Source: Tachypleus tridentatus
Lineage: Eukaryota > Arthropoda > Merostomata > Xiphosura > Limulidae
Assembly: GCF_004210375.1 (NCBI RefSeq)
Contig: NC_134837.1
Location: 160,249,310 to 160,313,309, forward strand
Direction of reading: 5' to 3'
DNA length: 64,000 nucleotides
Every line of letters begins with the position of its first letter. Positions within the stretch are counted from its first letter, which is position 1. Position numbers and translations under genes: made by a program. Under the pieces are notes generated by a model. That model did not search any database, was not told where the DNA came from, and worked only from the letters and a program-made list of their open reading frames with translations. This document shows positions 22,901-54,150 of the stretch, piece after piece.

Positions 22901-24669
22901 CATCAGGAAATAGTTTAATATGATAGTCTGAAATTTGTATATTTTAAAATAATGTTTGAAATATCAAATAAGCCTTAAGTTACCTTCCTGGCTTAAACAG
23001 ATTCACTGAAAATGTCATGACACGCCAAATTATTTCTTATTGCAGATATTTTTGTAAATATATGAGAGAGTTATCTGTGTTAACTGTTCTTAACTTTTAA
23101 CGTATGGACTAAAGGGAAGGCAGCTAATCAACACCCTCATCACAAATTATTTGGATACTCTAAACCAATAGTGTAATCTGACCGCCACTCTTATAACGTT
23201 ATTATAACATGAAAATGTGAAACACAATTGTGCCAAAACAGGACGTAAACCATAGATCTTCTGATTGACAGTGCTGCATCTTAATCACTAGACCATCCTC
23301 AACCTGAAAAAAATACAACAAAAAACCTTTTAAACTGCTGATTTCAGCCATATGATTTTAATTATGATTTTTGTTTTTCTTAAGGCAGAAAAATAAAATG
23401 AATAGTATTTATTTTAATAGTAGTTGTTTTTTCTTCATTACTTTGATACCTTCATTAAACGGAATAATTCTAGTGTTCCTAACATTAAAAAAGCTACACC
23501 TCCAAACAATTAACAAAAAACATTTTAATTGCTGAAAGTAAGTGTTGTATGTAAACGTTTGTTTAGGTGTGTGATTTTATCAAATCTGGAGCCACTCTTA
23601 TCTGGGACAATGAGCAGATGGTGCCATACGCGTATAAAGGAAACCAGTGGGTTGGTTTTGATGATATTAGAAGCGTCAAGACTAAGGTGAGTTGAAAAAG
23701 ACTATCAGTGTTTTGTTTTGAAGACATTAGAAGTTCTAAAGCTAAGGTTTGTTCAAAGTAAGATTAGTATATTGGATTTTCGTGAAAGGGCCTGTTTAAA
23801 CTCAACTGCACTTTTCTTTGAAGCCTATACGTTATGTTGTGTTAACCATGAACAAAACTCATTTGATACCTTATCAAAGTAAAAGATAGTCAAATATAAA
23901 AGTAGCAAACTAAAATGTACGTTTGCCTTGACTGATAAAACAGATCCAGTGGCTAAAGCAAGCTGGCTTTGGTGGAGTGATGATTTGGTCCTTGGATTTA
24001 GATGATTTCCTTGGTTCTTGCATGGGACATCCTTATCCTCTCTTAAAGACAGTGAAAAATGAACTGAGAGGATATATGGTAGCCAACCTGGAGGTTTTGG
24101 ATAGTAGACTTTATAACCCTCTTGGTAAGTTGTTTGATTGGTGCTTTTACACATTGTTAAGTTTTTATTAATTTATAGATTACACTGAAAAACACCGAGT
24201 ATGGGTTTGAGGTCAAAATCCATAAATACTTTTTATGTTTAATTCAATTATATAATACTCATTCTAATAATTAATTGATACGAGTATGATCGAGCTGAAA
24301 GGTATAAATTTCAGGGATATTTTTGTTAAATAGGGTTCGTTATTTGATAAAAGATATTTCATATGTCTAAACATCCATAATTCTCAAAATTAAAGGATTT
24401 ACAATGTTAGTTTCAAAATGGTATTGAATTAAAGGATTAGAGGCTTTAAAACTTTGAGCAATTTCCTTTCAGGAGAAAGAGAATTAGTTTGTGAAGAACA
24501 AGATGGGACCATCTATTACCATCAAGACAAAAAAGATTGTTCAAAGTATTATATTTGCCACAATCAGCAGCTTCATCACATGTCATGCCCAGCGAATCTG
24601 GTTTTCAACCTTGATGTTAACCTCTGCGACTGGCCAGAAAATGTGAAATCATGTCTATCAAAGACATGA
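1944..24669 (+). CDS. Secreted two-domain chitinase (GH18-GH18-CBM14), 16 coding exons
   Basis: Endo-acting GH18 chitinases hydrolyse beta-1,4 links of chitin, and CBM14 (peritrophin-A) binds it. Exons: 1944-1995, 5356-5616, 5884-6062, 6874-6998, 9497-9620, 10021-10206, 11958-12077, 12385-12661, 12879-13185, 14677-14800, 20064-20188, 20766-20889, 21410-21595, 23567-23686, 23944-24124, 24473-24669. All junctions are GT-AG and phases match; the sum is 2688 nt, or 895 residues plus TGA. Residues 1-17 are a signal peptide. GH18-1 spans about 24-385, with DGLELDWE at 141-148 (acid E148), MTYDFHG at 214-220 and W364. GH18-2 spans about 446-805, with DGLNVDWE at 562-569 (acid E569), MTYDFHG at 635-641 and W785. 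CBM14 has six cysteines between C837 and C891. The Ser/Thr-rich linker lies at 390-440. Two GH18 plus one CBM14 resembles insect Cht7 (group III), but here a cleavable signal replaces the membrane anchor. The family call is firm; orthology is open. Confidence 0.95.
2321..2668. repeat. Inverted pair of SINE-A fragments (large hairpin)
   Basis: Left arm 2321-2466 is a minus-strand 3' part of SINE-A; right arm 2510-2668 is a plus-strand 3' part of the same family. They are tail-outward around a loop of about 45 bp, so the arms can pair over roughly 145 bp. The pair lies in chitinase intron 1. Confidence 0.85.
2764..2860 (-). repeat. SINE-A fragment, old
   Basis: Diverged copy of the SINE-A middle region (agagggaaggtaactagtca and accaacgaaaagtgtaac), recognisable only by comparison with younger copies. 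Confidence 0.6.
3264..3302 (+). repeat. Short SINE tail fragment
   Basis: Contains gctgctttgtgccataaaac followed by accaaatcaacc, resembling the 3' tail of a SINE subfamily. A similar tail lies at 29103-29161. Confidence 0.35.
3394..4385 (-). mobile_element. Tc1-type DNA transposon (Tc1/mariner), inactivated
   Basis: A ~990 bp element in chitinase intron 1. Terminal inverted repeats of about 25 bp are visible: cccttgtgcaaattaattga from 3396 and its near-perfect complement ending at 4383. The minus strand encodes Tc1 transposase parts. The flanking TA duplication is no longer clear, so the copy is not recent. Confidence 0.9.
3408..4131 (-). pseudogene. Tc1 transposase relic (DD34E)
   Basis: The minus strand holds transposase blocks in two frames. 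The upstream block (3889-4131) has [16 protein letters not shown] with the first catalytic Asp. The block before 3760 reads [17 protein letters not shown] (second Asp; the usual His after it is lost). The downstream block has [16 protein letters not shown] with the catalytic Glu. Exactly 34 residues separate the second Asp and the Glu, the Tc1 spacing. A frameshift between about 3760 and 3890 and loss of the N-terminal DNA-binding part make it non-functional. Confidence 0.88.
4386..5355. other. Rest of chitinase intron 1; nothing recognised
   Basis: AT-rich intron sequence. Short open frames on the minus strand (4874-5255) show no family similarity that I recognise. Confidence 0.4.
5356..5616 (+). 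CDS. Chitinase exon 2: start of GH18 domain 1
   Basis: Encodes the first strand [14 protein letters not shown] and the second conserved block [11 protein letters not shown], both typical of the start of a GH18 barrel. It ends with KVLLAV and a phase 1 donor (ctgttg/gtaaga) in the middle of the conserved xxGGW motif. Confidence 0.93.
5884..6062 (+). CDS. Chitinase exon 3: catalytic motif of domain 1
   Basis: Completes the GGW substrate-binding motif and carries [11 protein letters not shown]. The catalytic acid is E148 with D146 beside it. The position two before D146, usually Asp, is Glu here (E144). The exon ends at phase 0 before gtgagt. Confidence 0.93.
6106..6866. repeat. 29-bp minisatellite filling chitinase intron 3
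   Basis: About 26 head-to-tail copies of a 29-bp unit (gatatagcttgacaaacaca + gaaatatgt) with a few alternating variants (gac/gat, cac/cag/cgg). It begins about 45 bp after the exon 3 donor and runs into the exon 4 acceptor, so the intron is almost pure repeat. Because 29 is not a multiple of 3 and the minus strand of the unit has no stop in any frame, all three minus frames stay open for 230-300 codons; these are not genes. Confidence 0.95.
6874..6998 (+). CDS. Chitinase exon 4
   Basis: Encodes [20 protein letters not shown] and the conserved TAAVSP block, then YDVPTMI before a phase 2 donor. The 3' splice site (tatgcag) directly follows the 29-bp minisatellite. Its length (125 nt) equals that of exon 11. 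Confidence 0.92.
7211..7481 (-). repeat. SINE-A, near full length
   Basis: tRNA-derived SINE on the minus strand with tail at 7211 and tRNA head (ccgggcc complement) at 7481. B box gaatttgaacccgcg (complement of GGTTCAAATTC) and the CTCGTAA anticodon-loop equivalent are visible. Lies in chitinase intron 4. Confidence 0.85.
7482..9496. other. Rest of chitinase intron 4; only a SINE scrap seen
   Basis: AT-rich intron. The only feature recognised is the SINE-A tail at 8748-8797; open frames near 7876 and 8368 are short and unlike known families. Confidence 0.4.
8748..8797 (+). repeat. SINE-A 3' fragment
   Basis: Just the last ~50 bp of SINE-A (gcagatagccctcgagtagc ... cgaaattcaaaacaaacaaa). 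Confidence 0.7.
9497..9620 (+). CDS. Chitinase exon 5: MTYDFHG block of domain 1
   Basis: Encodes [17 protein letters not shown], the conserved GH18 motif whose Tyr-Asp pair orients the substrate, followed by TGHHSPLYP. Its length (124 nt) equals that of exon 12. The donor is tgtg/gtacgt. Confidence 0.93.
9785..9961. repeat. AT-rich tandem repeat, ~26-bp unit
   Basis: About seven copies of a unit built from atagaaataataaataaata + aataat with varying numbers of AAAT steps, in chitinase intron 5, ending 60 bp before exon 6. Confidence 0.85.
10021..10206 (+). CDS. Chitinase exon 6
   Basis: Encodes [14 protein letters not shown], the YGRSFTL barrel strand common to arthropod and vertebrate chitinases, then [19 protein letters not shown] from the alpha+beta insertion. 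Its length (186 nt) equals that of exon 13, and it sits at phase 0 on both sides. Confidence 0.94.
10508..10630 (+). repeat. SINE-B copy (short tRNA-derived SINE)
   Basis: Second SINE family of ~120 bp: head with tagtacagcggtatgtctcc, B box ggggttcgatttccctg, body gcagatagccctatgtggct, A-rich tail with cacaaacac. In chitinase intron 6. Confidence 0.75.
10631..11957. other. Rest of chitinase intron 6
   Basis: No gene recognised. A locally GC-richer patch at about 11160-11340 contains ggctatataagccagtgagc, a TATA-like context that stands out from the AT-rich intron; see findings. Confidence 0.35.
11958..12077 (+). CDS. Chitinase exon 7
   Basis: Encodes [20 protein letters not shown] and then [11 protein letters not shown], matching the conserved W-IGFDD(xxS) region near the end of the barrel. 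Its length (120 nt) equals that of exon 14. Confidence 0.93.
12385..12661 (+). CDS. Chitinase exon 8: end of domain 1 and linker
   Basis: Encodes the last barrel strand [16 protein letters not shown], with W364 at the floor of the active site, then a Ser/Thr/Glu-rich linker of about 50 residues that joins the two catalytic domains. It ends at phase 1 (ctag/gtaacc). A copy of the donor lies 33 bp downstream; see findings. Confidence 0.92.
12662..12727 (+). repeat. 33-bp tandem duplication of the exon 8 splice donor
   Basis: Two identical copies of a 33-bp unit starting gtaaccagtattatcatgtt (12662-12694 and 12695-12727). The first copy begins at the exon 8 donor, so the donor GTAACC is present twice. 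Confidence 0.9.
12879..13185 (+). CDS. Chitinase exon 9: start of GH18 domain 2
   Basis: Encodes [27 protein letters not shown] and [10 protein letters not shown] in one uninterrupted exon. Domain 1 has an intron inside the GGW motif; domain 2 lacks it and instead splits 17 residues later, at LYR, phase 2. Confidence 0.93.
13398..13666 (+). repeat. SINE-A, full length but diverged
   Basis: Plus-strand copy in chitinase intron 9 with altered tRNA head and well preserved body (atgctcgccctttcagtggt ... gcgcagatagctctcatgta). An open frame across it (13554-13796) is an artefact. Confidence 0.75.
14069..14337 (-). repeat. SINE-A, full length
   Basis: Minus-strand copy with tail at 14069 and head ending ccgggcc at 14337, in chitinase intron 9. 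Confidence 0.85.
14677..14800 (+). CDS. Chitinase exon 10: catalytic motif of domain 2
   Basis: Encodes [20 protein letters not shown] and DWEFPRG. The catalytic acid is E569 with D567. The usual Asp two before D567 is Asn (N565). Confidence 0.93.
14801..16151. other. First part of chitinase intron 10; one SINE-B
   Basis: No coding sequence recognised. Open frames at 15150-15508 are short and featureless. At 16015-16140 a phrase of the type 'ttcaccgccttgctaaacgc' recurs three times, a small local tandem duplication. Confidence 0.4.
15824..15942 (-). repeat. SINE-B copy
   Basis: Minus-strand copy: GT-rich tail complement, aagccacattgggctatctg, B-box complement gaattgaacctc, and head ending cttaccgctgtacaggcgg. 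Confidence 0.75.
16160..19103 (-). mobile_element. hAT DNA transposon (Charlie/ZBED5-like), nearly intact
   Basis: A 2944-bp element in chitinase intron 10. Ends are inverted: CAGTGGTTCCCAAAC at 16160 and GTTTGGGAACCACTG ending at 19103. A perfect 8-bp target duplication gtctatga flanks it (16152-16159 and 19104-19111), which is diagnostic of hAT. The minus strand encodes an almost complete transposase. A clean duplication and near-intact frame argue for a fairly recent insertion. Confidence 0.95.
16412..18486 (-). pseudogene. hAT transposase with BED zinc finger, one in-frame stop
   Basis: Start chosen at [11 protein letters not shown] (18486). Exon 1 (17770-18486) has a BED-type finger (CVVCHKVL ... 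HLQKCHP) and [10 protein letters not shown] with the first catalytic Asp. A likely 275-bp intron (17495-17769; donor CAG/GTAGGG, acceptor aatctag) joins exon 2 at [12 protein letters not shown], which holds the second Asp. The end has [10 protein letters not shown] and RTRLNVAND, the hAT dimerisation region. About 599 codons. A single TGA after KWITM (16694-16696) interrupts an otherwise open frame, so the copy as sequenced would be truncated by about 94 residues. The alternative is a gene domesticated from hAT, but the ends and target duplication show a plain transposon copy. Confidence 0.88.
19482..19693. repeat. 53-bp tandem repeat, four copies
   Basis: The phrase cactgtgtttgtcagctagt recurs at exact 53-bp steps (gtgtttg at 19508, 19561, 19614, 19667) with modest divergence. 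In chitinase intron 10, downstream of the hAT copy. An open frame through it is a repeat artefact. Confidence 0.9.
20064..20188 (+). CDS. Chitinase exon 11
   Basis: Encodes [20 protein letters not shown] and [20 protein letters not shown], the counterpart of exon 4 with the same length (125 nt) and phases (0 in, 2 out). It lies after the 5.3 kb intron that holds the hAT transposon and the 53-bp repeat. Confidence 0.93.
20554..20660 (+). repeat. Possible SINE-B copy, degraded
   Basis: The order gtctcagtggtaagtctgag, tataactctaacattttgga, ttcattcctgtgg follows the head of SINE-B, but the body is unclear. Confidence 0.4.
20766..20889 (+). CDS. Chitinase exon 12: MTYDFHG block of domain 2
   Basis: Encodes [17 protein letters not shown] and VGHNSPLH, the counterpart of exon 5 with identical length (124 nt) and phases. 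Confidence 0.93.
21410..21595 (+). CDS. Chitinase exon 13
   Basis: Encodes [17 protein letters not shown] and [20 protein letters not shown], the counterpart of exon 6 (186 nt). The acceptor is tctttaaag, which is weak but gives the only frame that matches domain 1. Confidence 0.92.
21937..22090 (-). repeat. SINE-A, 5'-truncated, with target duplication
   Basis: Minus-strand copy lacking the tRNA head. The 10-bp sequence agacaacatt flanks it on both sides, so it inserted already truncated. In chitinase intron 13. Confidence 0.85.
23060..23303 (-). repeat. Old SINE related to SINE-A
   Basis: Minus-strand copy with shared body (actaaagggaaggcagctaa) but a different head (cttaatcactagaccatcct), so probably another subfamily with a different tRNA part. 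Confidence 0.6.
23567..23686 (+). CDS. Chitinase exon 14
   Basis: Encodes [20 protein letters not shown] and [11 protein letters not shown], the counterpart of exon 7 (120 nt). Confidence 0.93.
23944..24124 (+). CDS. Chitinase exon 15: end of domain 2
   Basis: Encodes [19 protein letters not shown], with W785 on the active-site floor, then [13 protein letters not shown] and a short spacer. It ends at phase 1 (cttg/gtaagt). Confidence 0.93.
24473..24669 (+). CDS. Chitinase exon 16: CBM14 chitin-binding domain and stop
   Basis: Encodes a peritrophin-A type domain with six cysteines ([36 protein letters not shown]) and the usual Tyr/Trp positions, then stops at TGA four residues after the last cysteine. 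A candidate AATAAA lies at 25161, about 490 bp downstream. Confidence 0.95.
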
Positions 24670-28004: not shown

Positions 28005-28679
28005 CTAATGATGGTTACTTTTAATGAACCGTTTGTTTTCGTAGTTGTCCCGTAGAAATGATGTTTTGAAGACTGGTCTAATTAGCTCCTCTTGAACATT
28101 TATATCATCTTGGCAAGATGATGGAGAGTGCAAGTAGAGAGAAAATGAACGTTTTGATATGAAACGAACATCGGATGAATTAGAGACGATAGATTGTCTC
28201 TCAGAATCTCTTATACATTTAGATAAAGCAGCATTTCTTCCATACTCGTATGTACCAGTTATTCCAGTAGTTTTAAAACAGGAACCATTATTAACACCTG
28301 TCATTACCGAACTCCGATTAACATTATCAAAGCACTGCGTGGAAGGAGTTGTAAACTGATAAGTAGGTTTTTTTTCTAGAGAGGTGTTGTAGTTAAAGAT
28401 TGGGACTGGATGAATGTTCTTTGTAACTTTCAACGTGTTATCGCTTTTTGCGTAGTTTGAACTTAAGCAGTATTTTTCTTGAGGTGAATTGTCTACTGTT
28501 ACAGGATGTGGAAGCTTAGGAACTGCTTGCAAGTTTTTCTTGGAAGAGAATAACGTGGGTACATCAATTAGAATTTTATCGTTGTCTGGATGGCCACATT
28601 CAATGATATCCACAGAATATTGATGTGGTGATTTTATCTCTGTACAATAGCTTTCAGATATTTCAGTCATGTCCAGCTT
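28005..28679 (-). CDS. FH3 gene exon 9: C-terminal tail and stop
   Basis: 224 residues from KLDMTEISESYC to FIKSNHH, then TAG. The tail is rich in Ser, Asn and Thr with no domain that I recognise; no polyproline FH1 and no FH2. Acceptor atatttgacag. A possible donor (AAAA/GTAACC) sits about 14 bp before the stop, so a longer isoform cannot be excluded, but no FH2 exon is seen downstream in the window. Confidence 0.72.
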   Translation of the reverse strand, partial: KLDMTEISESYCTEIKSPHQYSVDIIECGHPDNDKILIDVPTLFSSKKNLQAVPKLPHPVTVDNSPQEKYCLSSNYAKSDNTLKVTKNIHPVPIFNYNTSLEKKPTYQFTTPSTQCFDNVNRSSVMTGVNNGSCFKTTGITGTYEYGRNAALSKCIRDSERQSIVSNSSDVRFISKRSFSLYLHSPSSCQDDINVQEELIRPVFKTSFLRDNYENKRFIKSNHH

Positions 28680-31600
28680 CTGTCAAATATAACATCGAAA
28701 CGTAGAAATTTTAGTATTCATTTCAAGGTGCATAATTCTTTACTTCATTATGAGCAAATGACTAACTTAAAATATTATATTTTTAACGTTCATATTTTGT
28801 AGAGCTTGACCTAGAATTTTCCAAAAACTTAACTTTTAATTTAAATAAAAACGTTGACAGCGTAGAACATATAAAATTATTGCAGTTGCAAGCTGATAAA
28901 AGGGTGTGTCTGCGTGCGTGTTTGTGTGACCGCCATAATTCCAAGAGGAAGGAACCTGGAAACCTGAAATTTTGCAACCTTACTAAGTAAACCCTGGGGA
29001 TGTTCACTTGGGTATTACATACCCAGACGCATGCGCATCTTTCTAATGAGGAAAATTAGCGCAAAACCGCATAGAAAAAAAAAAAAGGTTTCTTATATTA
29101 AAATGGCGCAGATAGCCTAGTTGCTTTGCGCCATGAATACACCAAACCAACCAACCAACCATATCACAAACAGACAAGTACGCGGGCATGTGCGCGCATG
29201 CATGTACGAATCTTTAATGAGGCAAACTAGCGTAAAACACCGAAAAAATATTTCTTATATAGTAACTTCTATTATATAGAAAAGCCAGTGTGAGTATTAG
29301 TAACAATGTGTTCCAAAATGGATTTTATGTCATGTTACTAAGCAACAAAGGTATGTAGGATATACTAATAACCTGAGTGAAGCCGGGTTTTTCGTTAGTA
29401 TTTCATAAATGCCTATGTTATACGTTATTAACAATCAAAATTCTATATCATTTTCTAGACCTTGTTTCTTTGTCGTTTAGCAATTACTATATTAATAGCA
29501 TTAAGACTTTCTGTAACGCTTAACCAGTCGGAAATTATTAAAGGGAGACAAAAAGGTAAGAATAATTCTTTTCAATTCTGCTAGATGCTAAAACATATTA
29601 TGCATTTAGTGGAAGAAAAAAATCTATGTAAGTCGTTCTTATTTTATAATGTAAACGGACATTTTTCTGATCAGAAGTGTCAAATTATTAGAATGTTTTT
29701 TCAAACCATCCAGCAAACAACTTTCTTAGTGATGCCAAACATGTTCGTAGGTTATTAACAATCTGATGTTAACAAATGAAACGAAAGCAATCAGTAAAAG
29801 GCAAAACATATTTAACCTTTTAATGTTCAAGACGAGCTAATGAATTAATATGAAGGAAATGACAGGATTAAGGTTTTGAATTGTTTTTTGTTGCGATATT
29901 TTCAATTTGTTCAGATATTTATATCTCTGATGATAGTTACAAAAAATAAAATTTAAACATGGAGTATTTATTAATATGATACTTTTTAAACCAAGGTTAT
30001 CAAAGACTGTTATCATGTTGTACCAAGTTTAACAGTGTCCCTGATCCTTCCTTTGTATCACGCTGTCAAAATAATTGTAACCATAAAAAGTAAAGCACTT
30101 ATAATTCACAAAAATACCACAATATTTTATTATTAACTATTTAATTATAATTTTCATAAAGCTCTTACTTTTATTTCAGCGCGCATCAAACTTCTTTTCT
30201 GAGTTTCCAGTTTCTAAAAATAAAAATATGTACAAAACTGAAATAACCAAAGATATCTAATTGTTAAGAGATCGATGATTATATGTTTACTGTTTGAAAG
30301 CAAAACCATAAAATATATGCACTAAATTAAACATAACTGGTTTGAATCTAACGATAATAACACTATGTAAAAAAACTTTTACTTTTCTTGTTCCTGGGCA
30401 AAAAGTGTTATTTCCCACTTGCTTATGCCTAAACTAAATGGAAAAGACCTATATTTCTCTTCAAATTTTGCTTTTGTGACCTGTGTAATTAAATTTTCAA
30501 ATCTACCCACTTTCCAGAACATTCCAAATAGATTCAGTGCTGAGTAGCTGATAGAGAATTTTCTCGAACTTACAAGAATTTTCAAGAACTTTCTAGAATG
30601 TTGTAGAACTTACAAGAATTTTCTAGAATTTTCCATAGTAATATATATATATATACAGGAGCCTACCACTCACCACTTCATTTTAGTTCTAGCTGCGACG
30701 CATTCTGCTATGTATGTGGCCAGTTTATCAAGACAAAAGGGACAAAGTACTGTGTGACAGCATTTGCTAAAATGTGGAAAACATACAAGACATATTTCAG
30801 CATGCCTGTCGGGGATCAAGACAAACCCTGGGCACCTCATTTTACCTGTGAGTACTGCAAAAAACTCTAGAAGGTAAGACGGACAATTTTTGCTTGCTTG
30901 TGGAGAAAGTAAATTTATTCTTCATAATAACAATTTTATTTTGCTCTTTTGCAGGATGGTACAGAGGGAAAAAAAAATATGAAGTTTGCTATTCCAAGAA
31001 TTTGGTGTGAGCCCACTGACCACTCAATCAATTGCTACTTCTACATGGTGGACCCTTCCAAACGTCGGGCTGGCAAGAATGCACCTGTTATCATCTATCC
31101 GCCCCAGTGCCACACTGCCATGAACTCCCTGTACCCAATCCGCCAGAGAGAAAGCAGCCATCCTCAGAAGAGAGCAACACAAATCAGCAGAGGAGATAGA
31201 TGTTGAAGATCCAGATTACAGTTTCAGAGGTGCAGCTGGCGAGAGACACTCATACTACCCCAACCAAAGAGACCTCAATGACTTGATCAGAGATCTTGGT
31301 CTAAAAAAGTCGAATGCCGAACTTTTGACATCTAGGCTTAAGGAGTGGGATTTGTTAGATGAAAGTGTGAAAGTCGCAAGTCAGAGGAAGCGTCACCGAC
31401 ATTTTTCAAGCTTTTTCACTCGTCAAGATGGGCTCTGCTTCTGCCACAATGTATCCAATGCGTGCAAAACAATTGGAATTGCTTGTAACCCAAACGAGTT
31501 ACATTGATAGCTCATCCAGAAGCCTCAAAGCTGTGCTGCTCCATAACGGGAATAAGTATCCGTCTTTTCTCCTGGCTCATTCGGTGCACCTCAAAGAAGA

Positions 31601-34600
31601 ATACAACAGCGTCAAGACTTTGCTAGAAGCCTTGAAGTATGATGAATATGGCTGGGAGGTTATCGGAGACTTCAAAATGGTGGCATTTCTGATGGGTCTC
31701 CAAGGAGACTTTACCAAGTTTCCATGCTATATTTGCCTTTGGGACAGCAGGGACACTGCAGTGCACTACAACAGGAAGCACTGGCCACAATGGACCGAGT
31801 TCTCTGTGGGTAGCCACAATGTCAAGTGTGAGCCACTAGTAGACCTCGAGAAGGTGTTGTACCCACAATTGAAAATAAAATTATTTATGAAATTATTTGT
31901 TACAGCTCTTTATTAGGAGTCTGCAGCCTTCAAGTACTTTAGATATTTCTTCCCTAAGCTGTCTGAGGGAAAGGTCAAAGCTGGTGTCTTCGTAGGACTA
32001 CAAATACAGAATATCCTGGAGTGCACAGAATTTCCCAAGAATCTCAGTAGGAAGTAAAAATAAGCTTGGGGCAGCTTTGTGGTAGTGATCCGGGGCTTTT
32101 GAGCAATTACAAGGCCGAAAATTATGTAAAACTGGTTGAGACTGTGGTGAAGAACTACGGCAAAATGGGCTGCAGGATGTCTCTGAAAGTCCATATCCTT
32201 AACATCCATCTTGATAATTTCAAGGAGAACGTAGGAGCATACTCAAAGGAGCAAGACGAACGCTTCCACCAAGATATACTGGACTTTGAACGCCACTACC
32301 AAGGAGCGTATAACGAAAACATGATGAAAGACGATATTTGGGGGCGGTCCGGCCAGGTGGATTAAGGCGTTCGACTCGTAATCTGAGGGTGGCACGTTCA
32401 AATCCCCGTCGCACCAAACATGCTCGCCCTTTCAGCCGTGGGGGCGTTATAATGTGACAGTCAATCCCACCATTCGTTGGTAAAAGAGTAGCCTAAGAGT
32501 TGGCGGTGGGTGGCGATGACTAGCTGCCTTCCTTTTAGTCTTACACTGCTAAATTAGGGACGGCTAGCGCAGATAGCCCTCGAGTAGCTTTGCGCGAAAT
32601 TCAAAAAACGTACAATATTTGGGGACTAATACGAGAAAGTGATTTACATTACAGCCCCAAATCTAAAAAAACTACTCACTTCTAAACATTTTTTTGTATA
32701 ATGTTAGTATAAATACATGTAAATCTTGATTCATATGTTGTTTTATTCTGACCGTATGTAAATGAAAATGTGTAAATTTGCTTATTTTTTTCAAAATAAT
32801 TTCAAAATTTCATTATCCAGGTCCCAAAAGCAAAGTTTGAGGGGAATAATGGCCATTTTCTGTACTTTTACAACATAAACAATTAAGAAATAACACATAC
32901 TATCCAGGAATAAAATTTGTGTTACATAGTGTAATCAACACATTAGTAAATGATGATTTACATGAATTACATCTTATCTTAATTTCTAAACCTAAATGTA
33001 AAAAATCGTTGTTAGAGTATAACAGTATCGTGTTGCTTTAAATTAAATATTTTATAGATGGTTCAATACAGAGATTGTGTTTTCTATTAGTGAGTCAAAC
33101 TTAACTATAATATATAGTGATAATTAGATTACATTTTTATACGCACATTACATGTTTTAATTACAATTAAAATCAGAATAAAATTAATGTCGCTATTGTG
33201 AAAATAACACAACTGTATTATTCAATCAGATAACGTGCCACCTCTATGAAAGTTTAAAATGTTGTAATACATGTGTACGAAATAAATTAGTGTTGAATGA
33301 TAAGTGAACAAAAATAGAATATGCATTTTAATAAAACATTCAAAGTTTAATAAATAAAACGATTTAATTACTCCGAATAAATTTAGCTAGATATTGGTGT
33401 GATCACTCCTGTGTACTCCTACAGTCCATAACTGAAGTGGAGAATTTTCACTAAACTATTCACTTGTGAAATGTGCGTTACTGAAAACATATTCACTGTG
33501 CTTTAATAAAGGTAAGGTTAAATAAATTTGAAGAAAAACATGTCAGTCAGCGAATCTTATGTTTTTACCACTTGTATAGCTTTGAAGTATCACACCACTA
33601 AATACTAAATATACAATTAGTTAGAAATAATGACCAAATATACACAAATGATTCATTTGAGAGATAAATTGTATTAAAGTGTTTCGCAAGAAAAGCTGTG
33701 TGAGACCCATTTGTGTGAGAAAAAACATTATATCGACAGTGGCGCCATAGCATTTGGATTACTTTATAAACAAATTAAGCTTTTTGGAACAATATTCTAT
33801 GAATAATTACTACATGACTATGAGTTATTAAGCACTACTCACTTCATTCACTTCGTGGAGATGCTTGACCTAAAATTAAAACCATAAAATATGCTTGTAT
33901 TACAAAATGGTTACAAAAACACAGCTAATTTAATAACAATTAGATGATGCAAACGTTATTTACAATAGTTACACGTGTGGTGTCAAATGTATTAGGTATT
34001 CCATGAGTGTGAAACCATGGAGAAAATAGACATTATATTCTTAAAATTGAACAAACTTATTTCTGATGTCAGATGTATATATTCCAGGAAAGAAAATACC
34101 TTGATGGCACAGGAAACCACGAATGTAGATGTAAAAGATTGTTAATGGCGTGCAATTCGATTAATTAACATGTAAAGAATTAATTGTGTATTTTTTCTAT
34201 GGGTCCAGACTTGTGGTACTCTTTGTACTGTATTTTTACATCTATAGAGTTACTGGAATGGTATAAAATTACTCTGATGCTTAAAATAATAGCAAAAGAG
34301 AAGAAACAAACACGTTGTAGGCAAGACGCGCTAAAAGTTCTAGAAATTAAGTTTTTAATTTTTTCAGTACATTTTAAGTTATATATACAAACTTGTGAAC
34401 TATAAATGAGTCGATATCCCTGTTAGTGCTCCTTGTGTGACATATTATGTTTATTTCTTCATTAACGTGATTAATACTGTAATAACTGAACGCGCTGAAG
34501 AACATTTTATCTTTTAAAAGATTTTTAATGAAACGACGTGGTTGAAAATAAGACTTCAATTAATTAAGAAAGTTTTACGTATATACAGGCCCGGCATGGC

Positions 34601-37600
34601 CAGGTGGTTAAGGCACACGACTCGTAATCTGAGGGTCGCGGGTTTGAATCCTCGTCGCACCAAACATGCTCGCCCTTTCAGCCGTGGGGCGTTATAACGT
34701 GACGGTCAATCCCACTATTTATTGGCAAAACAGTAGCCCAAGAATTGGTGGTGGGTAGTGATGACTAGCTGCCTTCCCTCTAGTCTCACACTGCTAAATT
34801 AGGGACGGCAAGCGCAGATAGCACTTATGTAGCTTTACGTGAAATTCAAAACAAGCCAAACTAATTCATGTATATACAATTATGGTATAAACTATGGGTG
34901 ATTTTATCCATTTTACCACGGGCTTTAAGCCGCTGGTTGATATATTGTGAAACAACGTTGAAATAAGTTGAGATACCTTCCAATACTTTATACATCGTTT
35001 ACACATTGATAATAATACCTTTGATACTGAACGTGAGGTTAATCTTGTGATTTTACACGCAAAAAAAAAAAAAAAATCAGTTCTCTTACAATAGCAGGAC
35101 AATGTTTTTATATATTTACATTTGACATTTCATTTTTTTCTCACGTAAATTTTAACTAATTAATTAATTACCTCATTTTTTAATACTTTAATTTGAGACA
35201 CCATCTTTTGGCTCTCGCTCATTATATTTTCGACGTTCAGATATCTTTCTTTCCACTTTGATATTTCTTTCCAAATGCCATCATTACCTGGCATCGTTTT
35301 TTCAAATAATTCCTGATAAAAGAGAAAAAAAAAAGCAGCTATAAAAACTGACACACACTTCAAATACAAACCAAAATTACTTTAAAACTTTAATACCGAT
35401 AACAGCGAAAGCTGTTTGAAGAAGACAGCCCAATGTTCTGTCGAAACATGTAGCATGTTCTCCCAATAATAAATAGTTGTTCGCCAACTTAATATTATAT
35501 TAGTGTAATATACTTCCTCACTCACGCTAAAGAAAGAGACACAAACAACTTCTCACCTCTTCAAGTTTCGAAATATTTAATCCTGCTTTCTTAAACTCAC
35601 ATTGTAGGCGGACTTTCTGGTTCAAGTCACGAGTTCTCAGAATAATCGTGTTGATTAACACAAGGACTGCGAACTAGGAGAAACAAATTACCATTTAGAG
35701 AACTTGGTTGTATTGAACAAACATATAGTCAACAAATACACTCACAACCTCCTGAGCAGTATAAAAACAGGCGATCTTTCAGTGGAAAGATTCGAAACGG
35801 GAAACAAACGTTCATAATAAAATAAGTTTTCTTACTTTAAAATCCGCTGAATTACGTGTTTCCGTCTTCAACATTGACACCATGAACTTAAATCTCACTG
35901 ATTCACCATAAGCCAGTTGTAGAGATGTCATAGCTTCAAGAACCATTTCGTTACCGTCAAAAGAAGCCTGACAGACAGTTGTCAGTAACTAAGTAAAAAA
36001 GTGTTTACAAATGAAAAACCAATGTTTGTTTAAAATGAACAATATCATTAATAGATCATTAACTTTATTGTTATAAAATTTGTTTTCGCTTGCGACTTGA
36101 GAAGTTCAATGAAAAACTAATATTATAAAGTTTCAAAGAATTTGCAATTGTTTAATGTGTAAATATATCAAAATAAATATTTTAAGGCGTAACCTTATAA
36201 ACTTAATTAGCATATTGTGAATATAATTTATCGCTTAACTGTTTTAAAGCGTTTGTAGTCGTCTTTTCCTTGCGTTTTTAAACAATTCATTTACTACTGT
36301 TGTTTATTATCATTTGTTGCTGTAACATTGTTAAGATACCTATGAAGCTTAAATTACATTTATTTAATTGCTTGCAATAAAATTAATAATACGTACGAGA
36401 CGGCATCTATCGGTTCTTTTAAATAATTAAACTTGTAAAATTTCATTGAACATCATCTCGTGACAGCAAAATGACAAACAGAGATTTAAAAAAATAATGA
36501 AGTGGTTTTATTTTAAGGAGCATTTTAATTTATTTTACAGAAAATTAGTCTGTCTTTTAAGGAGAACTAAACAACTTTCTTCTTAGAAAACAGACCAAAG
36601 CATGTCGAAATATGAAGCATGTTCTCCAAAATAAAACCATATCATCTTGCTGATAAATTGTTGTTTGTCAATTAACTATTATATCGGAGTAATTGGTTTC
36701 CATACAAAAGACATTTAGTAATGTTATAAGAGCCTGTACGCATTCTTACAATCGTTAAAAGTTTGACAAAAGGAGTATTTATTAATTACAAGGAGATCTT
36801 CAAAATACTGTGATTGAAATGTATAGTTAGGTGATGTGGAATTCATAAATTATAATTTCGTTTATCAATAAAATGCATATTTATTAACTTGTCAATGGTG
36901 ATTGTTTAAGCACAAACAAATATACACGTTGACACATCTAAACAATATTTACTTGTTTGTTAAAAGTTTACTCGTGCCGAGTAATTTAGAAATTGTCTGC
37001 CTTGCAGATGTAACAGATAATAACTGGAGTAACGTAATTTAATATTAAAATGTTTTTAAATATATACGTGTGTAAATTATATATTATTTTATTCAATTAT
37101 CCAATCATTCTTACCTGCAATGCCAGCAAACGAGATTTTCTGCTATTACTCATTATGCAAAATGCTAAAGTGGAAACTCCATTAGAATGTTTCATAACCA
37201 TGGTAACAGCCTCCTAAAATATTAAACCAGTTTTGTAGAATTTGTAAAGGCGATTTTACTATACAAGCTTCTTGTGTTTTATAATGACATTCATTAAATA
37301 GAACTACAATATCTGTTTAAGCCGGCAGAGAAATAAGCAACATGTGACTACTATACTTACTATGTATCAACTCATGCAGACAGGAATTATGTGGTTAAAG
37401 TGTATTTGTATATATTTATATCTTTAGTTATGTGATAATTATAAAACACTACCGCTTAAAATGTAGTTTGCGCATGCAGCTATTAAGTAAAAATTACTAT
37501 ATTACTTTTTATATCTTTTGGTGCACGTAAGAACAAAAACTACTTTTCAAATTACACCCGACCAAGATAAAAATAATCATTTAGGGGTTTGGGAAAGTTA

Positions 37601-40600
37601 TTAACTCAAGCTTTTTTTTTGTTTTTGAACGAAGCTAAGGTGAAAAGTTTATCGGTAATCATTCGAATCGAAAATTGGATGACAAAAGTTTTGTTGTTAA
37701 ATAGAGATTTCTTTTATTTTCAGCCAGAAAGCGTTTTTTCGCACTCACACTATAACGGTGATAATGGATAACACTTACGATATGTCTGAAGTACATAATG
37801 CATTCCTTACTAGAGTTTCAGCCACATTATATAATACTCTTTGAATCATCAAATGAAATAAGTAGCCGATCAACTGTATTCCAGTTTAAAGTAAATGCCA
37901 GCAACCACTTTATGATCTTGTCCCAATAATAGTCATTTTCTACCTTACAGGTCCCATTAAATGACATCTGGGAAGCTGATTCTGCCTAGTCTTTCAAAAG
38001 CACTCGCATTTTAACTAAGATAAGAATAATAAACTGATAAAATGCAAACATAATATACAATATACGTTTGGTGTGAACAGAAACTCAAACCATATTACAA
38101 TTGGCAGATGGAGGTAGGAAGAACCAGTATAAAACAAAACGAAACACATTTGCGAATATATTTTGGACATGTTAAAAATAAAAGGAAGGAAGTTGGTTTA
38201 AAAACTGTTTGAAAGTAGTTGCAAAAATATAGAAAACAGCAAGAAATGAGGATAGGAAATGAACAATAAATTTTCTGAGAGTGGAAACCCTGAAATAATT
38301 GGAAGAAAAACCGAAAGAAAGCAAGTTATAATGATTGAAAAAACATTAATGAGGCGGTAATGAAAACAATGAGTTATACTTACTCAATATTGGAGTAGGA
38401 TTGAAAAGTCTGTACAATGAACTTGTTATAAAAATATAAAACAAGGAGATGACGGTTTTGTTTTAGACATTCGTGCAAAGTTCTCAAGAGCCGTTCGCAT
38501 TAGTCATCCTTAACTTTTAACTTATATACTAGCCCTCGTGTGGCTTTGCGCAAAATTCACAAAAAAAAACAACAACATACCTTTAATGTCATGCAGTTCT
38601 TCAAACATAAAAGACATTCGTGTTCTTCCCGCTGAGAAAAACAAACCAAAACTGAAATAGTTTGAAGCAATACCACAGTTTATAGACTACCATAATCTGA
38701 TTCACCTCATCTAGATACAATCGGGGTAATTACGGACATTAGTCCTTATCAAGCTTTACTAAATCCTGAAGACATCACGAATTCAATAAAAATTGTTTAA
38801 ATAACATAAATAATGCATAACAAGTTGAACTATTCTTTTCACACCATAACACCAAAAATATGTCATAGTGATGTTTAAAGGTACCCTGTGTGACGTATAA
38901 GTTCAGCACTCTTAACCAATCCATCAGTTCGCTCTATTAATCATTCGAGCACTCAGAGCCAACTTCGAGTTGATGCTCTGAGCCAACGCACTGCCCATGG
39001 TGCGACCTTGTAACATGCAACTTATTTGTTTGTTTTGTTGTTAAGAACAAAGCTATATAATGAGTTAGCTGTGCTGTGTTGATCACTGGAATTGAACCTG
39101 GTTCCTCGCGTTATAAGCTTTTAAATTTACCGCTGACCATTGGGAGGCTAGATTATTTGTATTACCTAAATTGTACCTTCAAACTTATAATTTGGATTTG
39201 GTGCAATTAGCATTACTCCAAAGTATTAAAGAAACGTTACTTTATAGTTAAATTATTTCTCAACCAAGTAAACAATAGTAGATTTTAGAAATATCTTTTG
39301 TTTACTGAATACAATTAATATACCAGTTTCATTGCCAATGTATAATTTGTTATAACCATTGAAACGTAACTAACCCTAAACTTGAAATATTGAATTATCC
39401 AAAATTAGGTCTAGCTAAATCAACCTGAAAGAGTCATGCCTGTTAAACAAGGGAAAAAATATACTTATTAATGAGTGTTCAAATACCTACTCTTCTCCAA
39501 CACTTGATTCAATGCAATCTTTTCTTGTGAAGAGCTTATTTTTGACCTAGTTGCAGACGGTTTTATAGAATTTGACAGTCATTACAATGTCAATTATGAT
39601 GTTTTCTGAAGGATTGAAATATTGATTTAACCAATTTTCCAGCTGATTTAAATTAGCATTTATTGCTAGCTAATCTAAGACTCAAAGAAGCTTATCATAA
39701 TTCCAACAGTATGCCATCTAACATCACCCCATATTAGAACAAATTGTAGTCAAATTACGCACGAGACAGATTTTATAGCTTGAAATAAATACCACAGATG
39801 TCACTGAAGAGTACATCGGCTACTCATAAGTTGAGTAAGATCTATACATTTGTTCACATTTATGCCTCACCAAACAATAGCAGAATCACCAACGAAAAGG
39901 TATTAAAGTACTTGAAAACGGCATTCTTATCAACTCCGGCGATTTCGACAAAAATTAACGACAAATGCGACAGATTGCAGGACTTAAATAGACTAATGTA
40001 CATCTTCTAACTTAAAGTTAAAAGCGTGAAGTCTGTAATTCACAGTTTGGTCATTCATATTCACTCCACTTTCTCCTAAAGTTCATGCTTACTTCTTACA
40101 ATGTGTACTGGTGTTTTCTTTTGGCCATAATTTGCAGATAACGGTCATTAATAGGGCCCAGTTGACCTTCTATGAGTTTATTTAGGTAATTCAGTGTATA
40201 CATTAGTTGTCTGATATATTGCCACAACTTTCTCGCACCAGAATTATCTGTTATTTGTTTCTATACTTATTTCATTTCTAACATTGAAATAGTTACGGTT
40301 GCTTCTACTTACATTAGAAATTTCCAACTGTCACTTCATGTAACATTGTCACAAACGTTACATGGGAATATTAAATAAAACCGAAATGGTTACTAAAATA
40401 GCAGTGGCCCGGCATGGCCAAGCGTGTTAAGGCGTGCGACTCGTAATCTGAGGGTTGCGGGTTCGCATCCCAGTCGCGCCAAACATGCTCGCCCTTTCAG
40501 CCGTGGGGGCGTTATAATGTGACGGTCAATCCCACTATTCGTTGGTAAAAGAGTAGCCCAAGAGTTGGCGGTGGGTGGTGATGACTAGCTGCCTTCCCTC

Positions 40601-43600
40601 TATTCTTACACTGCTAAATTAGGGACGGCTAGCACAGATAGCCCTCGAGTAGCTTTGTGCGAAATTCAAAAAAACAAACAAACACTAAAATAGCAAGCAG
40701 TAAATAATTAGATAAACAAGTTTTATTCCACTTAAGGTTGGGTTAACTAACAGAAACAAATATTAATATAATTAATATTATCTTTTAATAAAAGTAAGCA
40801 ACTTTTATGGCTCAAAATTAAATAAATGTGTCAATAAGCAATGTTTTCCAACCAGTATATTATATAGACTTTCATATACAAACAAATGGTTTCTTCTCTT
40901 GTTAGTCTCATTTCTATAATCTTACTTTTACTACATACGACCGTTGTTATAATATTAAACTGCATATACGGATTAACGTCGAAACTTCATTAAACTTTTT
41001 CTGTTATTAATTAGAAATTCAGGTGAACATACGTTTATAACTTCTTTGTGATACGAATAACGGGATATAATATAGAAATTCAAATATTTCTCTACGAATC
41101 TAATATAATAACAATAGTACACTGCGAGTTCGAAACTTGAAGATAATTTCAACAGCTTGCTTATCCGATAAAGGAAATGAAATTCTAAAACGGGAACTTA
41201 CACCAGAGAGAAGTCAACACTACCCTTACCAAAGCGTTTTTCAGCAAAAACTGCCTTTTAGAATCACGAATCCAGTTTAGCTTCTGATCAATTTGTATTT
41301 TCCAGCAACTGTTCAGAAGATCTAGAACTGATCTAACTCCATTCTGAGGCTCGGCTACAAACTCCTGGAGAAACCTTCACATAAATTGGTGAATCAATTA
41401 CAACATATTAATTTACAAATAAAGTAACGAAGAATTGAAAACAAACAACAACAAAAACTTCAGTAAAACAAACAACTCTACATCTTTTAAATATTTTTCT
41501 GGTTTGAAATTTCTCTTTCAGTTTTGACAGCAACATACAAGGAATTATTGAACACCAAAATACCAAAGTTATTTGGGATATAATACAGCATAAAAACAAT
41601 GGAAAATTAAAATAAATATTAAACGAACTTTGTATTGGCGGTTTGCAAATCTTCTTTCAATTTTTGTAGCATATAACATAAACTTGGAAATTCCAAGGTC
41701 ACATCATTGTCCTCAGATTTTCTTTTATTCTTTGACATAACTTCATCAATTAGTGTTACCTGGCGTCGCAAATAGTAAGCGTAGTATCTAGGATCAATGT
41801 ATGGAATAGGGCGTTTGTACTGTAAGATTAAAATACATTTAGCAAAACCATGTAAATACATAAGGAACTATTAAAAGAAATATATATATATATATATATG
41901 CAACAAATTTTATGAATCTTACGTTTCAGTTTCCCGATGGGTCAGCAGCAGGTGTACGTATTTAAACTGTTGAAATTTGGGTTTTCCTTCTCCGCAGTGG
42001 ACAGACGACTGTGTTATAAGTTTGTAAGAAGTATTAAAAATATTAATTTCAAAATTAATTGTAACATTTTCAAATGAATATTGACGTTTATTATAGGTTA
42101 ACATGGATCTTTTTAACTGCCACTGTAGTAAACTAAATTAAAAGAGCGCATGTCGACGTATACAGAACATTCACTCTAGACCTGAAAAGTGAGATATTCA
42201 GTAAATGTTATGATAAATCAATTTATAATTTAATGTTTAGAGACATATTTTTTGATCAGTGGTGAATTAAGAGCTCTTCAGGCTCAGTATGGTCAAGTAG
42301 TGAAGGCGCTCGACTCATACTCTGAGGGTTCGAATACCTGTCGCACCAAAATGCTCGCACTCTCAGCCGTTGGGGCGTTATAATGTGACGGTCAATCTCA
42401 TTATTCGTTGGTAAAAAGAGTAGCTTAAGGGGTGGCGGTGGGTGGTGACGACTAGCTGCCTTCCCTCTAGCCTTACAATGCTAAATTAGGGACGTCTAGC
42501 GCAGATAGCCTTCAAGTACCTTTGCGCGAATTTGAAAAAAACGAACAAACAAAAACAGATGAGAGCTCATCCATTTGCCATAGATTTTTTCAGTGACAAT
42601 AAATAACTTAACTTTCGTTAGTAAACAAAATAAATCAAATTAACTGCAAATGCTTTTCCACATTTCCATCACTTGTCCATTGTGACTCAAGGTCGGAGGT
42701 ATATAAAAACAGCTTTTAAGATTTATCTTTTGTCTCTCACAAGTCACTTCCCAAGAAATTTTATTCTTTAATACCACAACTTACTAGTTGGGATGAACGA
42801 TGAGAGACAAAGATTTTAATGTCGATGAGTGAAATGCCATTTATAATTGCAGTATAACACCTTAAAATTTACGGTTTGAACGTCCAAATCTTTTAAACTG
42901 TTGAAAACCAATAAGCTTAAAAGAAAGTTATAAACTTCCAAGTTTTATAACGGTTTAAGCTTGTTGGTTTCAAATAGTTCACAGGCTATTGAGGATTAAG
43001 CCGTAAGTTTGAAGATTTTAAAAACATATAAGTAAAAAAATGGTAAAGAGAAATATAATGTGATTCAAAAAATTGAATTTTTTTGCATAACGAGGCCTAG
43101 TATAACCTAATGGAATGGACAAAAAATATGTCCACCTTTTTAGCTGTCATGGAATTGACATATTGGGGGCAGGAATGCTAAATTCAAGAGCTACGTTTTA
43201 TCTTACTTACCCCTAAATGGAAGTACCTTATTTCCATTATTATTTATTTATTATTTTTCATCTTTTTATGTTTATCTTCTTATTATTCTAATTTGGGAGG
43301 CCAGTCATCTTCCCACAAACTGTCTGCAGGCAGTGAAGGGTGATATAGATGTGGGAGTTGTGAACTTGAGCACCCGCATCTCGCTCTCTTAATTTATATT
43401 TTTTTTATGTGAGACCAGAGAATTGAAGATTAAGACTGATAAATAGTGTATCTCCACCGCAATGTTGGTCCTGCTTCCGCAGTCACCTCCAAAACCTAAG
43501 ATACATTTTATAATCCCACGTTGTAGCTTGTACTATAGGATCCCTTTAAAAAAAAATGTGCAGCGTGTTTAAATTTTTTTAATTAGAAAAATTCATGTTA

Positions 43601-44318
43601 ATGTGTTTTGGTTTGTAGCTTGAATATTTTATTGTCATAATCTATACACACACACACACACACACATATACACATACCTTTTGACATATTCAGAATAATT
43701 TCTAGTTGATTAAACGGTATTTGACAGATAAATGTAAAACCTAGTAAAATTTAAAAAGATAAATAAAAATACAAACAAACTTCTCTCAAATTATAGTTGG
43801 ATACTATAATATTATATTGGTAAACTGAAACAGTTGTACGGCAATTTGTAAGAATATTTTGGCATGGTGTAACAATATACTAGACCACTGTAACAATGTA
43901 ATAATAAACTATTTAGCCATGTGAATTTAACTGGACTTGTACTCCAAACGAAACATGTACTTTTTATCACTGAGGTGACAGCATCACACACACATACACA
44001 AACAGTTGCCTTTATCGTCAAGCTATTGTGCATGCGGCATGCAGTAGTCAAATTACCATTAGAACAAAACAAAAAAAACATTGTTTTTTCTTCTATAGTA
44101 CATTAATACATATCTATCAAAGTAACACCAAATCAATATAAAACTTTCTAGTTTCACTCCTTTGACTATTAGCAATATACATAACTATAATGAGAAATAT
44201 TTCCTGAACTTTCAACAAACATACAATTACCCATATTTATAGGCGGACGTACCTGAGCTGAACTACGAAGACTTCGTCTAAAAAACACTTCAAGTTGGTC
44301 GCTTCCGGGAGTGGACAT
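28005..44318 (-). CDS. FH3-only formin-like protein (Multiple wing hairs type), 9 coding exons
   Basis: Exons (minus): 44253-44318, 41625-41819, 41230-41364, 37115-37213, 35836-35988, 35557-35673, 35172-35312, 33843-33869, 28005-28679; all phase 0, about 535 residues. Residues ~23-310 match the GTPase-binding/FH3 armadillo fold of formins: DPRYYAYYLRRQ and LQKLKEDLQTANTKF (GBD), EFVAEPQNGVRSVLDLL, HSNGVSTLAFCIMSNSRKSR, LLTTVCQASFDGNEMVLEAM, then VLVLINTII with VRLQCEFKKAGL. Residues ~290-325 form a coiled coil. The last 220 residues are Ser/Asn-rich and unlike FH1 or FH2. Known biology: FH3 domains mediate autoinhibition and Rho-type GTPase binding; Drosophila Mwh has GBD-FH3 without FH2 and limits actin prehair formation. 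The FH3 call is strong. Orthology to Mwh is inferred from architecture. A short or decayed formin is the alternative. Confidence 0.82.
29103..29161 (+). repeat. SINE tail fragment
   Basis: gcgcagatagcctagttgct followed by gcgccatgaatacacc and repeated aacc. It is the 3' end of a SINE-A relative. Confidence 0.5.
30370..32900 (+). mobile_element. Broken element of an unnamed repetitive protein family
   Basis: Plus-strand relic in the last intron of the FH3 gene (opposite strand). The protein has an N-terminal Cys-rich part (CYVCGQF, HFTCEYCKK, 30700-30870), then KFAIPRIWCEPTDHS, DPSKRRAGKNAP, LIRDLGLKKSNAELLTSRLK, FFTRQDGLCFCHN, SSSRSLKAVLLHNGNKYPS, DEYGWEVIGDFKMVAFLMGL and GCRMSLKVHILNIHLDNF. 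I recall near-identical proteins repeated across arthropod and cnidarian genomes, usually labelled uncharacterised; I cannot name the class or its ends. The coding region carries several breaks and is split by a SINE-A at 32341. The flanking AT-rich non-coding parts are included tentatively. Confidence 0.6.
32341..32608 (+). repeat. SINE-A inserted in the 30.4-32.9 kb element
   Basis: Full-length plus-strand copy with a near-perfect target duplication (acgatatttgggg before, acaatatttgggg after). The host coding text resumes directly behind it (IWGLIRESDLHYSPKS), so the SINE came after the element. Confidence 0.9.
32901..33842. other. FH3 intron sequence; nothing recognised
   Basis: AT-rich sequence without a coding frame, SINE or tandem repeat that I can identify. 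Confidence 0.4.
33843..33869 (-). CDS. FH3 gene exon 8: 27-nt microexon
   Basis: Encodes VKHLHEVNE, flanked by acceptor ttttaattttag and donor GAA/GTGAGT, phase 0 on both sides. It continues the heptads of exon 7 (I-KVLKNEV-KHLHEVN-EKLDM), which is the reason I accept so short an exon. Confidence 0.6.
33870..34587. other. FH3 intron sequence; nothing recognised
   Basis: AT-rich; short open frames at 34184 and 34374 show no family signature. Confidence 0.4.
34588..34861 (+). repeat. SINE-A, full length
   Basis: Head ggcccggcatggccaggtgg, B box gggtttgaatcctcg, tail acaagccaaac. The flanks cgtataTaca and tgtatataca act as target duplication. Confidence 0.88.
35172..35312 (-). CDS. FH3 gene exon 7
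   Basis: 47 residues, ELFEKTMPGNDGIWKEISKW then a helix running into IKVLKNE. It closes the FH3 region and starts a coiled coil. Donor GAG/GTAATT. Confidence 0.8.
35395..35515. repeat. Dispersed repeat, copy 1 (Penelope-end-like)
   Basis: Contains agaagacagcccaatgttct then gtcgaaacatgtagcatgtt, similar to 36560-36690. The text with GUCGAAAC resembles terminal repeats of Penelope-like elements, but this is a guess. Confidence 0.35.
35557..35673 (-). CDS. FH3 gene exon 6
   Basis: 39 residues, FAVLVLINTIILRTRDLNQK then VRLQCEFKKAGLNISKLEE. Matches the FH3 helix '..FIN.VL....L..RV.LQ.EF...GL...L'. Confidence 0.9.
35836..35988 (-). CDS. FH3 gene exon 5
   Basis: 51 residues, LLTTVCQASFDGNEMVLEAM then SVRFKFMVSMLKTE. 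This is the most diagnostic formin block ('LLAAVC..P.GHE.VLEA......ERFRF..L...L'). Confidence 0.9.
35989..37114. other. FH3 intron 4; one dispersed repeat copy
   Basis: AT-rich; holds the second copy of the dispersed repeat at 36560-36690 and no gene. Confidence 0.4.
36560..36690. repeat. Dispersed repeat, copy 2 (Penelope-end-like)
   Basis: Contains gaccaaagcatgtcgaaata and gaagcatgttctcc followed by 'ttgctgataaattgttgttt', paralleling 35395-35515. Confidence 0.35.
37115..37213 (-). CDS. FH3 gene exon 4
   Basis: 33 residues, EAVTMVMKHSNGVSTLAFCI ... RKSRLLALQ. Matches the FH3 pattern 'VM.HP.GV..IA.SL...N.R.R.LALELL'. Acceptor aatattttag, donor CAG/GTAAGA. Confidence 0.87.
38528..38576 (+). 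repeat. SINE-A 3' fragment
   Basis: ctagccctcgtgtggctttg then cgcaaaattcac and an A/C-rich tail. Confidence 0.6.
39024..39150 (-). repeat. SINE-B copy, diverged
   Basis: Minus strand: tttgttgttaagaacaaagc, B-box complement ggaattgaacctggttcc, head aaatttaccgctgaccattg. Confidence 0.65.
40406..40683 (+). repeat. SINE-A, young full-length copy
   Basis: Close to the family consensus, with A box (tggccaagcgtg), B box (gggttcgcatccc), tail caaaaaaacaaacaaac, and a perfect 12-bp target duplication actaaaatagca (40392-40403 and 40684-40695). The best single reference copy here. Confidence 0.93.
41230..41364 (-). CDS. FH3 gene exon 3
   Basis: 45 residues starting EFVAEPQNGVRSVLDLLNSC, the first armadillo-like helix pair of FH3 (formins have 'EFL...GL..LL'). 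Acceptor tttctccag, donor TTG/GTAAGG. Confidence 0.8.
41625..41819 (-). CDS. FH3 gene exon 2: GTPase-binding region
   Basis: 65 residues, YKRPIPYIDPRYYAYYLRRQ to LKEDLQTANTKF, aligning with the formin GBD pattern (PDYY...L, then a helix ending before the first FH3 repeat). The acceptor aatcttacag is good; the donor TTC/GTTTAA is weak. A stronger internal donor (CAG/GTAACA after LRRQ) would give a short in-frame form lacking 45 residues. Confidence 0.7.
42280..42550 (+). repeat. SINE-A, full length, diverged head
   Basis: Head aggctcagtatggtcaagta, body normal, tail acgaacaaacaaaaac. A short gagctc repeat at both flanks may be a target duplication. Confidence 0.8.
43648..43667. repeat. (CA)n microsatellite
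   Basis: About nine to ten CA units (cacacacacacacacaca), with a further interrupted CA/TA part to 43676. Confidence 0.85.
44253..44318 (-). CDS. FH3 gene exon 1: N-terminus
   Basis: MSTPGSDQLEVFFRRSLRSS plus AQ, then donor cag/gtacgt, phase 0. This ATG has a purine at -3 and is the frame that joins exon 2. A longer open frame over the same DNA (44237-44488) leaves the donor in phase 2 and hits a stop in exon 2, so I reject it. Confidence 0.65.
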
Positions 44319-54065: not shown

Positions 54066-54150
54066 GGTCTCCAGTAGTAAACTTACAGACTTACAACACT
54101 AAACTTCGGTTTCGATTCCAAACAGGGAGCTATACACAGCTGAATATAAG
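54066..54150 (+). repeat. Possible SINE-B 5' part
   Basis: acttacagacttacaacact and cggtttcgattcc follow the SINE-B head and B box directly after the minisatellite. Confidence 0.5.

Follow-up and report, generated by a model that had tools for sequence, protein, structure and literature searches.

What kind of protein is encoded by a formin-like gene that carries GBD and FH3 blocks and then stops short of the actin-assembling FH2 domain? The question is raised by a minus-strand locus in the window, the whole stretch of 64,000 nucleotides of Tachypleus tridentatus DNA analysed here. Two coagulogen exons from the same genome fit this species: from HFKSECPV to the end they are identical to the solved coagulogen 1AOC, of Tachypleus tridentatus, except for two letters produced where the exons were joined, and coagulogen is a protein of horseshoe crabs. 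The initial annotation, made from the letters alone, proposed nine exons encoding about 535 residues with a tail ending in a stop codon, and it nominated Multiple wing hairs (MWH) as the family. The count of nine exons holds: running from 44318 to 28005, they are separated by eight GT-AG introns, every join is in frame, and together they encode 545 residues in a reading frame that is open across 1,638 nt with zero frame breaks and closes, as proposed, with a stop (Table 1). The start methionine lines up with the methionines chosen in the two paralogs on C7 and C9, and a further exon upstream is possible. Two splice sites look weak, the donor of exon 2 (gttcgt) and the acceptor of exon 3 (gtgaag), and intron 8 spans 6.5 kb. 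The short exon 4 was recognised through comparison with the paralogs, and the lengths of exons 4 to 8 (51, 99, 153, 117 and 141 nt), together with their phases, are equal in all three genes.

Table 1. Exons of the FH3 gene and the convergent chitinase region, in window positions
Feature	Position	Strand	Details
Exon 1	44253..44318	-	66 nt; start Met (MSTPGSDQLEV...)
Exon 2	41629..41819	-	191 nt; C7 counterpart 182 nt, C9 counterpart 191 nt
Exon 3	41230..41374	-	145 nt, phase 2 (FLQEFVAEPQNG); C7 and C9 counterparts 148 nt
Exon 4	38581..38631	-	51 nt (REEHECLLCLKNCMTLK); DID
Exon 5	37115..37213	-	99 nt; DID
Exon 6	35836..35988	-	153 nt; DID; T aligned to mDia1 A256, Q to I259
Exon 7	35557..35673	-	117 nt; Drf_FH3 match
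Exon 8	35172..35312	-	141 nt; Drf_FH3 match runs on, to residue 322
Exon 9	28005..28679	-	675 nt; 224-aa tail with islands ILIDVPT and EELIRPVFKT; TAG at 28005
Chitinase gene(s), convergent	5316..24669	+	GH18 exons, the last exon being CBM14

The proposed GBD and FH3 blocks were borne out by a Pfam search with the 545-residue protein, in which both profiles passed their cut-offs: Drf_FH3 with 48.0 bits (cut-off 27, E 1.7e-12) and Drf_GBD with 36.1 bits (cut-off 30.1, E 6.1e-9). The latter match owes its significance to exon 4, without which it reaches only 16.7 bits, and a third profile, FH3_FHOD1-3, is borderline (27.6 bits against a cut-off of 27.4). Because the Drf_GBD alignment covers the profile only from position 73 onward, it leaves the initial portion of the GTPase-binding region unmatched; Drosophila MWH is itself predicted to have a DID and a DD without a G-domain (PMC5047451). 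Among proteins in the PDB the best match is FMNL2 (E 8.9e-18, or 1.8e-13 without exon 4), followed by FMNL1 (8e-15), mDia1 (best E 1.6e-8) and INF2 (best E 1.9e-7). A genome-wide search with the Drf_FH3 profile placed none of its 20 matches on the exons of the window, to which it is blind because it was run exon by exon. The strength of the Drf_FH3 match to the spliced protein, and the exon lengths and phases that recur in the paralogs, identify a real protein-coding gene beyond chance.

Three loci of this kind are present in the genome: the window gene on C13, one on C7 and one on C9. They emerged from a genome search with a draft of the protein, whose 11 matches comprise eight in the window gene and three elsewhere, one on C7 and one in each of two C9 copies. 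A 528-residue model lacking exon 4 served, along with the paralogs or parts of them, for the larger tree and for the tail, motif, coil-exon and FMNL comparisons described below. On C7 the gene comprises ten exons that encode 844 residues. On C9, the copy at 8.84-8.86 Mb covers exons 1 to 9 (348 residues), whereas an inverted copy at 8.24 Mb supplies an open tail of 484 residues; the two are 98.3% identical over their longest match, and exon 1, present in one copy, has a GC donor. Decay of the C9 gene was considered on account of tail frameshifts in the 8.86 Mb copy and was rejected: the tail at 8.24 Mb is open over 484 residues, so the frameshifts are confined to one copy, where they are perhaps assembly errors. 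Identity between the C7 and C9 proteins is 66.5% over 322 residues, against only 39.6% between the window protein and C7 and 39.3% between it and C9; the window protein hence split off earlier or has evolved faster.

The three proteins form a group of their own. In a 12-row tree built with the 528-residue model, the window, C7 and C9 proteins cluster apart from FMNL, DIA1 and INF2 with support of 100/100, and the same cluster returns in a 9-row tree with the 545-residue model (99/98), where both trees carry a long-branch warning, include some partial rows and contain no insect MWH or MWHF rows. Thus the window protein is closest to FMNL among the Drf formins in the PDB ranking, yet falls into a separate cluster in the trees. 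The combination of GBD and FH3 (DID-DD), no FH2 match nearby and a separate group with C7 and C9 supports the MWH identity proposed at the outset. We consider the window gene very probably a member of the MWH family, its orthology being argued from the domain design, the published family and the paralogs.

The window copy differs from its paralogs chiefly in its tail, and the question arises of whether it is a divergent duplicate whose function is largely or wholly gone. Its tail of 224 residues is about 275 residues shorter than that of C7 (499). A coil-like exon of 69 nt found in C7 and C9 was not recovered on scanning intron 8 of the window gene, where the best score, -4, was matched by nine of ten shuffled introns. 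The motif ISxLVHxEITxAVKExxGWL, common to the C-termini of C7 and C9, is absent from the window tail, for which 1,700 and 1,361 of 2,000 shuffles score equally well. Likewise, alignment of the whole tail with that of C7 is not significant, with a score of 52 against a mean of 40 and a maximum of 69 in 500 shuffles. What the window tail has kept is an island, ILID(V/I)PT, whose scores against C7 and C9 are matched by two and none of 2,000 shuffles, respectively; the other island, around IRPV, is less convincing, with 64 and 18 shuffles of 2,000 doing as well. Against a loss of function stand the unbroken frame, the GT-AG borders of every intron and the distribution of substitutions. Over 318 codons compared with C7, identity at codon positions one, two and three is 53.8, 65.7 and 35.8%, respectively, with a chance expectation of 26% at the third. 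This pattern points to a constrained protein, as an unconstrained gene would be expected to have broken before its third positions had diverged so far. Loss of function is accordingly improbable in our estimation, and the window copy is, as judged from its sequence, a divergent short member of the MWH family.

Less probable still is that a conventional formin, FMNL or another, has recently lost its FH2 half by decay and that the window holds a dying gene. The top solved matches, FMNL2 and FMNL1, would agree with such an origin. However, the genome possesses six FMNL loci, including a near-identical pair, with 67-79% identity to FMNL1 (4ydh) over the matched segments, and the window gene is therefore not simply the horseshoe crab FMNL; the FMNL loci on C6, C12, C10 and C3 have FH2 matches nearby. 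Rather than joining these loci, it clusters with C7 and C9, at which FH2 matches are lacking too, and its nine exons are open although third positions have diverged to 35.8% identity against the 26% expected by chance. A decayed conventional formin, the outcome that would have argued against the first reading, is thus not what the comparisons reveal, and we regard it as very unlikely.

The other outcome of that kind would be FH1-FH2 exons joined to the gene outside the window. A genome search for FH2 yielded 46 exon matches among the best candidates scored, the search proceeding exon by exon so that a too divergent FH2 exon would escape it; C7 and C9 have none of the 46, and C13 has four, the closest of which lies 70 Mb from the window gene. 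The 20 FH3 matches mentioned above served as a control: they correspond to 12 loci elsewhere, and all 12 have a same-strand FH2 match no more than 36 kb away. Together with the stop at 28005, these distances agree with the initial statement that little room is left for FH1-FH2, and no FH2 exon within reach of the gene was matched in the genome search. That the exons represent the first half of a longer formin, with FH1-FH2 spliced in alternatively or from beyond the window, could draw on the 6.5 kb of intron 8, but has very little to recommend it in view of the stop codon, the plus-strand chitinase that terminates 3.3 kb further on, the FH2 distance of 70 Mb compared with at most 36 kb at the 12 other FH3 loci, and the lack of FH2 matches at C7 and C9 alike.

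As a member of the MWH family, the window gene joins a group with a published history. MWH has been reported from Limulus, Daphnia and some nematodes and is placed in the MWHF subtype adjoining FMNL; its origin is traced to loss of the C-terminus from an MWHF formin in an ecdysozoan ancestor (Pruyne 2016, PMC5047451). The MWH proteins of Limulus polyphemus, Daphnia pulex and Drosophila likewise have a Drf-type DID-DD, lack FH1-FH2 and lie near FMNL, and horseshoe crab MWH is named in the legend of Figure 3 of that paper (PMC5047451). The idea that finding the gene in a chelicerate would put a new date on the system is not supported, as the Limulus gene was already published in 2016, and the question of age is largely answered by the Limulus and nematode reports (PMC5047451). 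The MWHF formins of molluscs, annelids, echinoderms and sponges have a related DID-DD, with no DAD or WH2-like motif reported; they retain FH1-FH2 and are set apart by this published description from the window gene, which has no FH2 match (PMC5047451). FMNL formins differ from it in the same respect, as their FH2 is present. While the MWH family is known from horseshoe crabs already, our analysis adds a short-tailed copy beside two longer ones. Compared with the published MWH proteins, there are three loci in a single genome here, and one tail measures only 224 residues; no mention of a three-copy set, of a short-tailed copy or of the pocket changes described next came up in the sections and passages of PMC5047451 that were consulted.

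How might such a protein act? The GBD-FH3 part of Drosophila Mwh (residues 60-491) directly pulls down a Dia fragment, 448-1029 (CC-FH1-FH2), that lacks the DD; Dia and Mwh co-immunoprecipitate weakly from wing discs, and the authors termed the structural basis of the interaction unknown in 2015 (PMC4346269). The DID of formins is the binding partner of the DAD, and mDia1 A256D serves as an active variant, as does FMNL2 A272E by analogy (PMC5364437). At the positions aligned with mDia1 N217, A256 and I259 the window protein has T, T and Q, C7 has Q, K and K, and C9 has Q, K and D; among the mDia1, INF2 and FMNL rows with letters there, alanine is found in six of six, isoleucine or leucine in six of six and asparagine in four of four. 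The mDia1 numbering takes residue 69 as the first of chain B of 1z2c, which puts an alanine at 256 in keeping with the mutant name A256D, and N217 and I259 are residues that we take to be DAD contacts. The Dia fragment 448-1029 reportedly lacks the DAD as well. FMNL formins, in contrast to the window protein with its T and Q, carry a DAD together with Ala and Leu in the DAD pocket. Because the positions of A256 and I259 are changed, capture of a formin DAD is unlikely to be the way in which MWH acts, and a contact elsewhere on the formin seems the more plausible guess.

By homology with Drosophila Mwh, the window protein, if expressed as predicted, would most likely form dimers through its DD and would most likely bind a conventional formin such as Dia. 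With no FH1-FH2 of its own it is not expected to assemble actin; instead, its binding would hold back local actin assembly by the formin wherever planar polarity cues place the protein, and the changes in the DAD pocket argue that the formin would be contacted via a surface other than the DAD. It is conceivable, if on balance somewhat doubtful, that the MWH DID gave up DAD binding altogether and restrains formins by another surface, and that the window copy, split off by duplication, is a natural near-minimal version consisting of DID-DD and ILID-PT. Were this true, it would show which parts of the MWH tail are dispensable. The DAD-pocket changes amount to a concrete prediction of how a formin relative without FH2 restrains Dia, and one short and two long tails with one motif in common, all in one animal, allow a test of the role of the Mwh tail. 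As for the reading from letters alone, it located a real nine-exon gene and appears to have named its family correctly.

The convergent gene that had been noted downstream is also genuine: a plus-strand chitinase faces the MWH tail. Three ORFs of this region were tested against Pfam, of which two are GH18 and the last, ending at 24669, is CBM14, leaving 3.3 kb to the MWH stop at 28005. The region contains at least two GH18 starts, at 5.4 kb and 12.9 kb. On each of C13, C7 and C9, plus-strand chitinase exons (at 11380029-11397618 on C7 and 8205211-8233779 on C9) point towards the MWH tail, and this arrangement at all three loci is the pattern expected of copies from a whole-genome duplication. 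The simplest account is that the three MWH genes date from whole-genome duplication in a horseshoe crab. On C9, chitinase and MWH each occur twice (7.60-7.62, 8.21-8.26 and 8.84-8.86 Mb), the MWH copies being inverted and about 98% identical. The genome search gave no MWH match adjoining the second chitinase copy at 7.60-7.62 Mb and no GH18 match adjoining the second MWH copy at 8.84-8.86 Mb. Either the assembly contains a haplotype duplication here or the inverted repeat is real.

The remainder of the window holds several minor features. Within intron 8, on the plus strand at 30607-32365, several ORFs in differing frames resemble one broken gene, one of which (31371-31916) had no match in a Pfam search. 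The same holds for an ORF of 116 residues at 48289-48639 on the plus strand. Repetitive sequence at 5978-6974 (minus strand) and 53316-54102 can be read as ORFs in several frames. Finally, transposon-like ORFs are found on the minus strand at 17731-18558 and 3408-3944; in Pfam, their matches to BED and C2H2-type zinc fingers are below the cut-offs, and a match to the DDE_3 endonuclease is above its cut-off.
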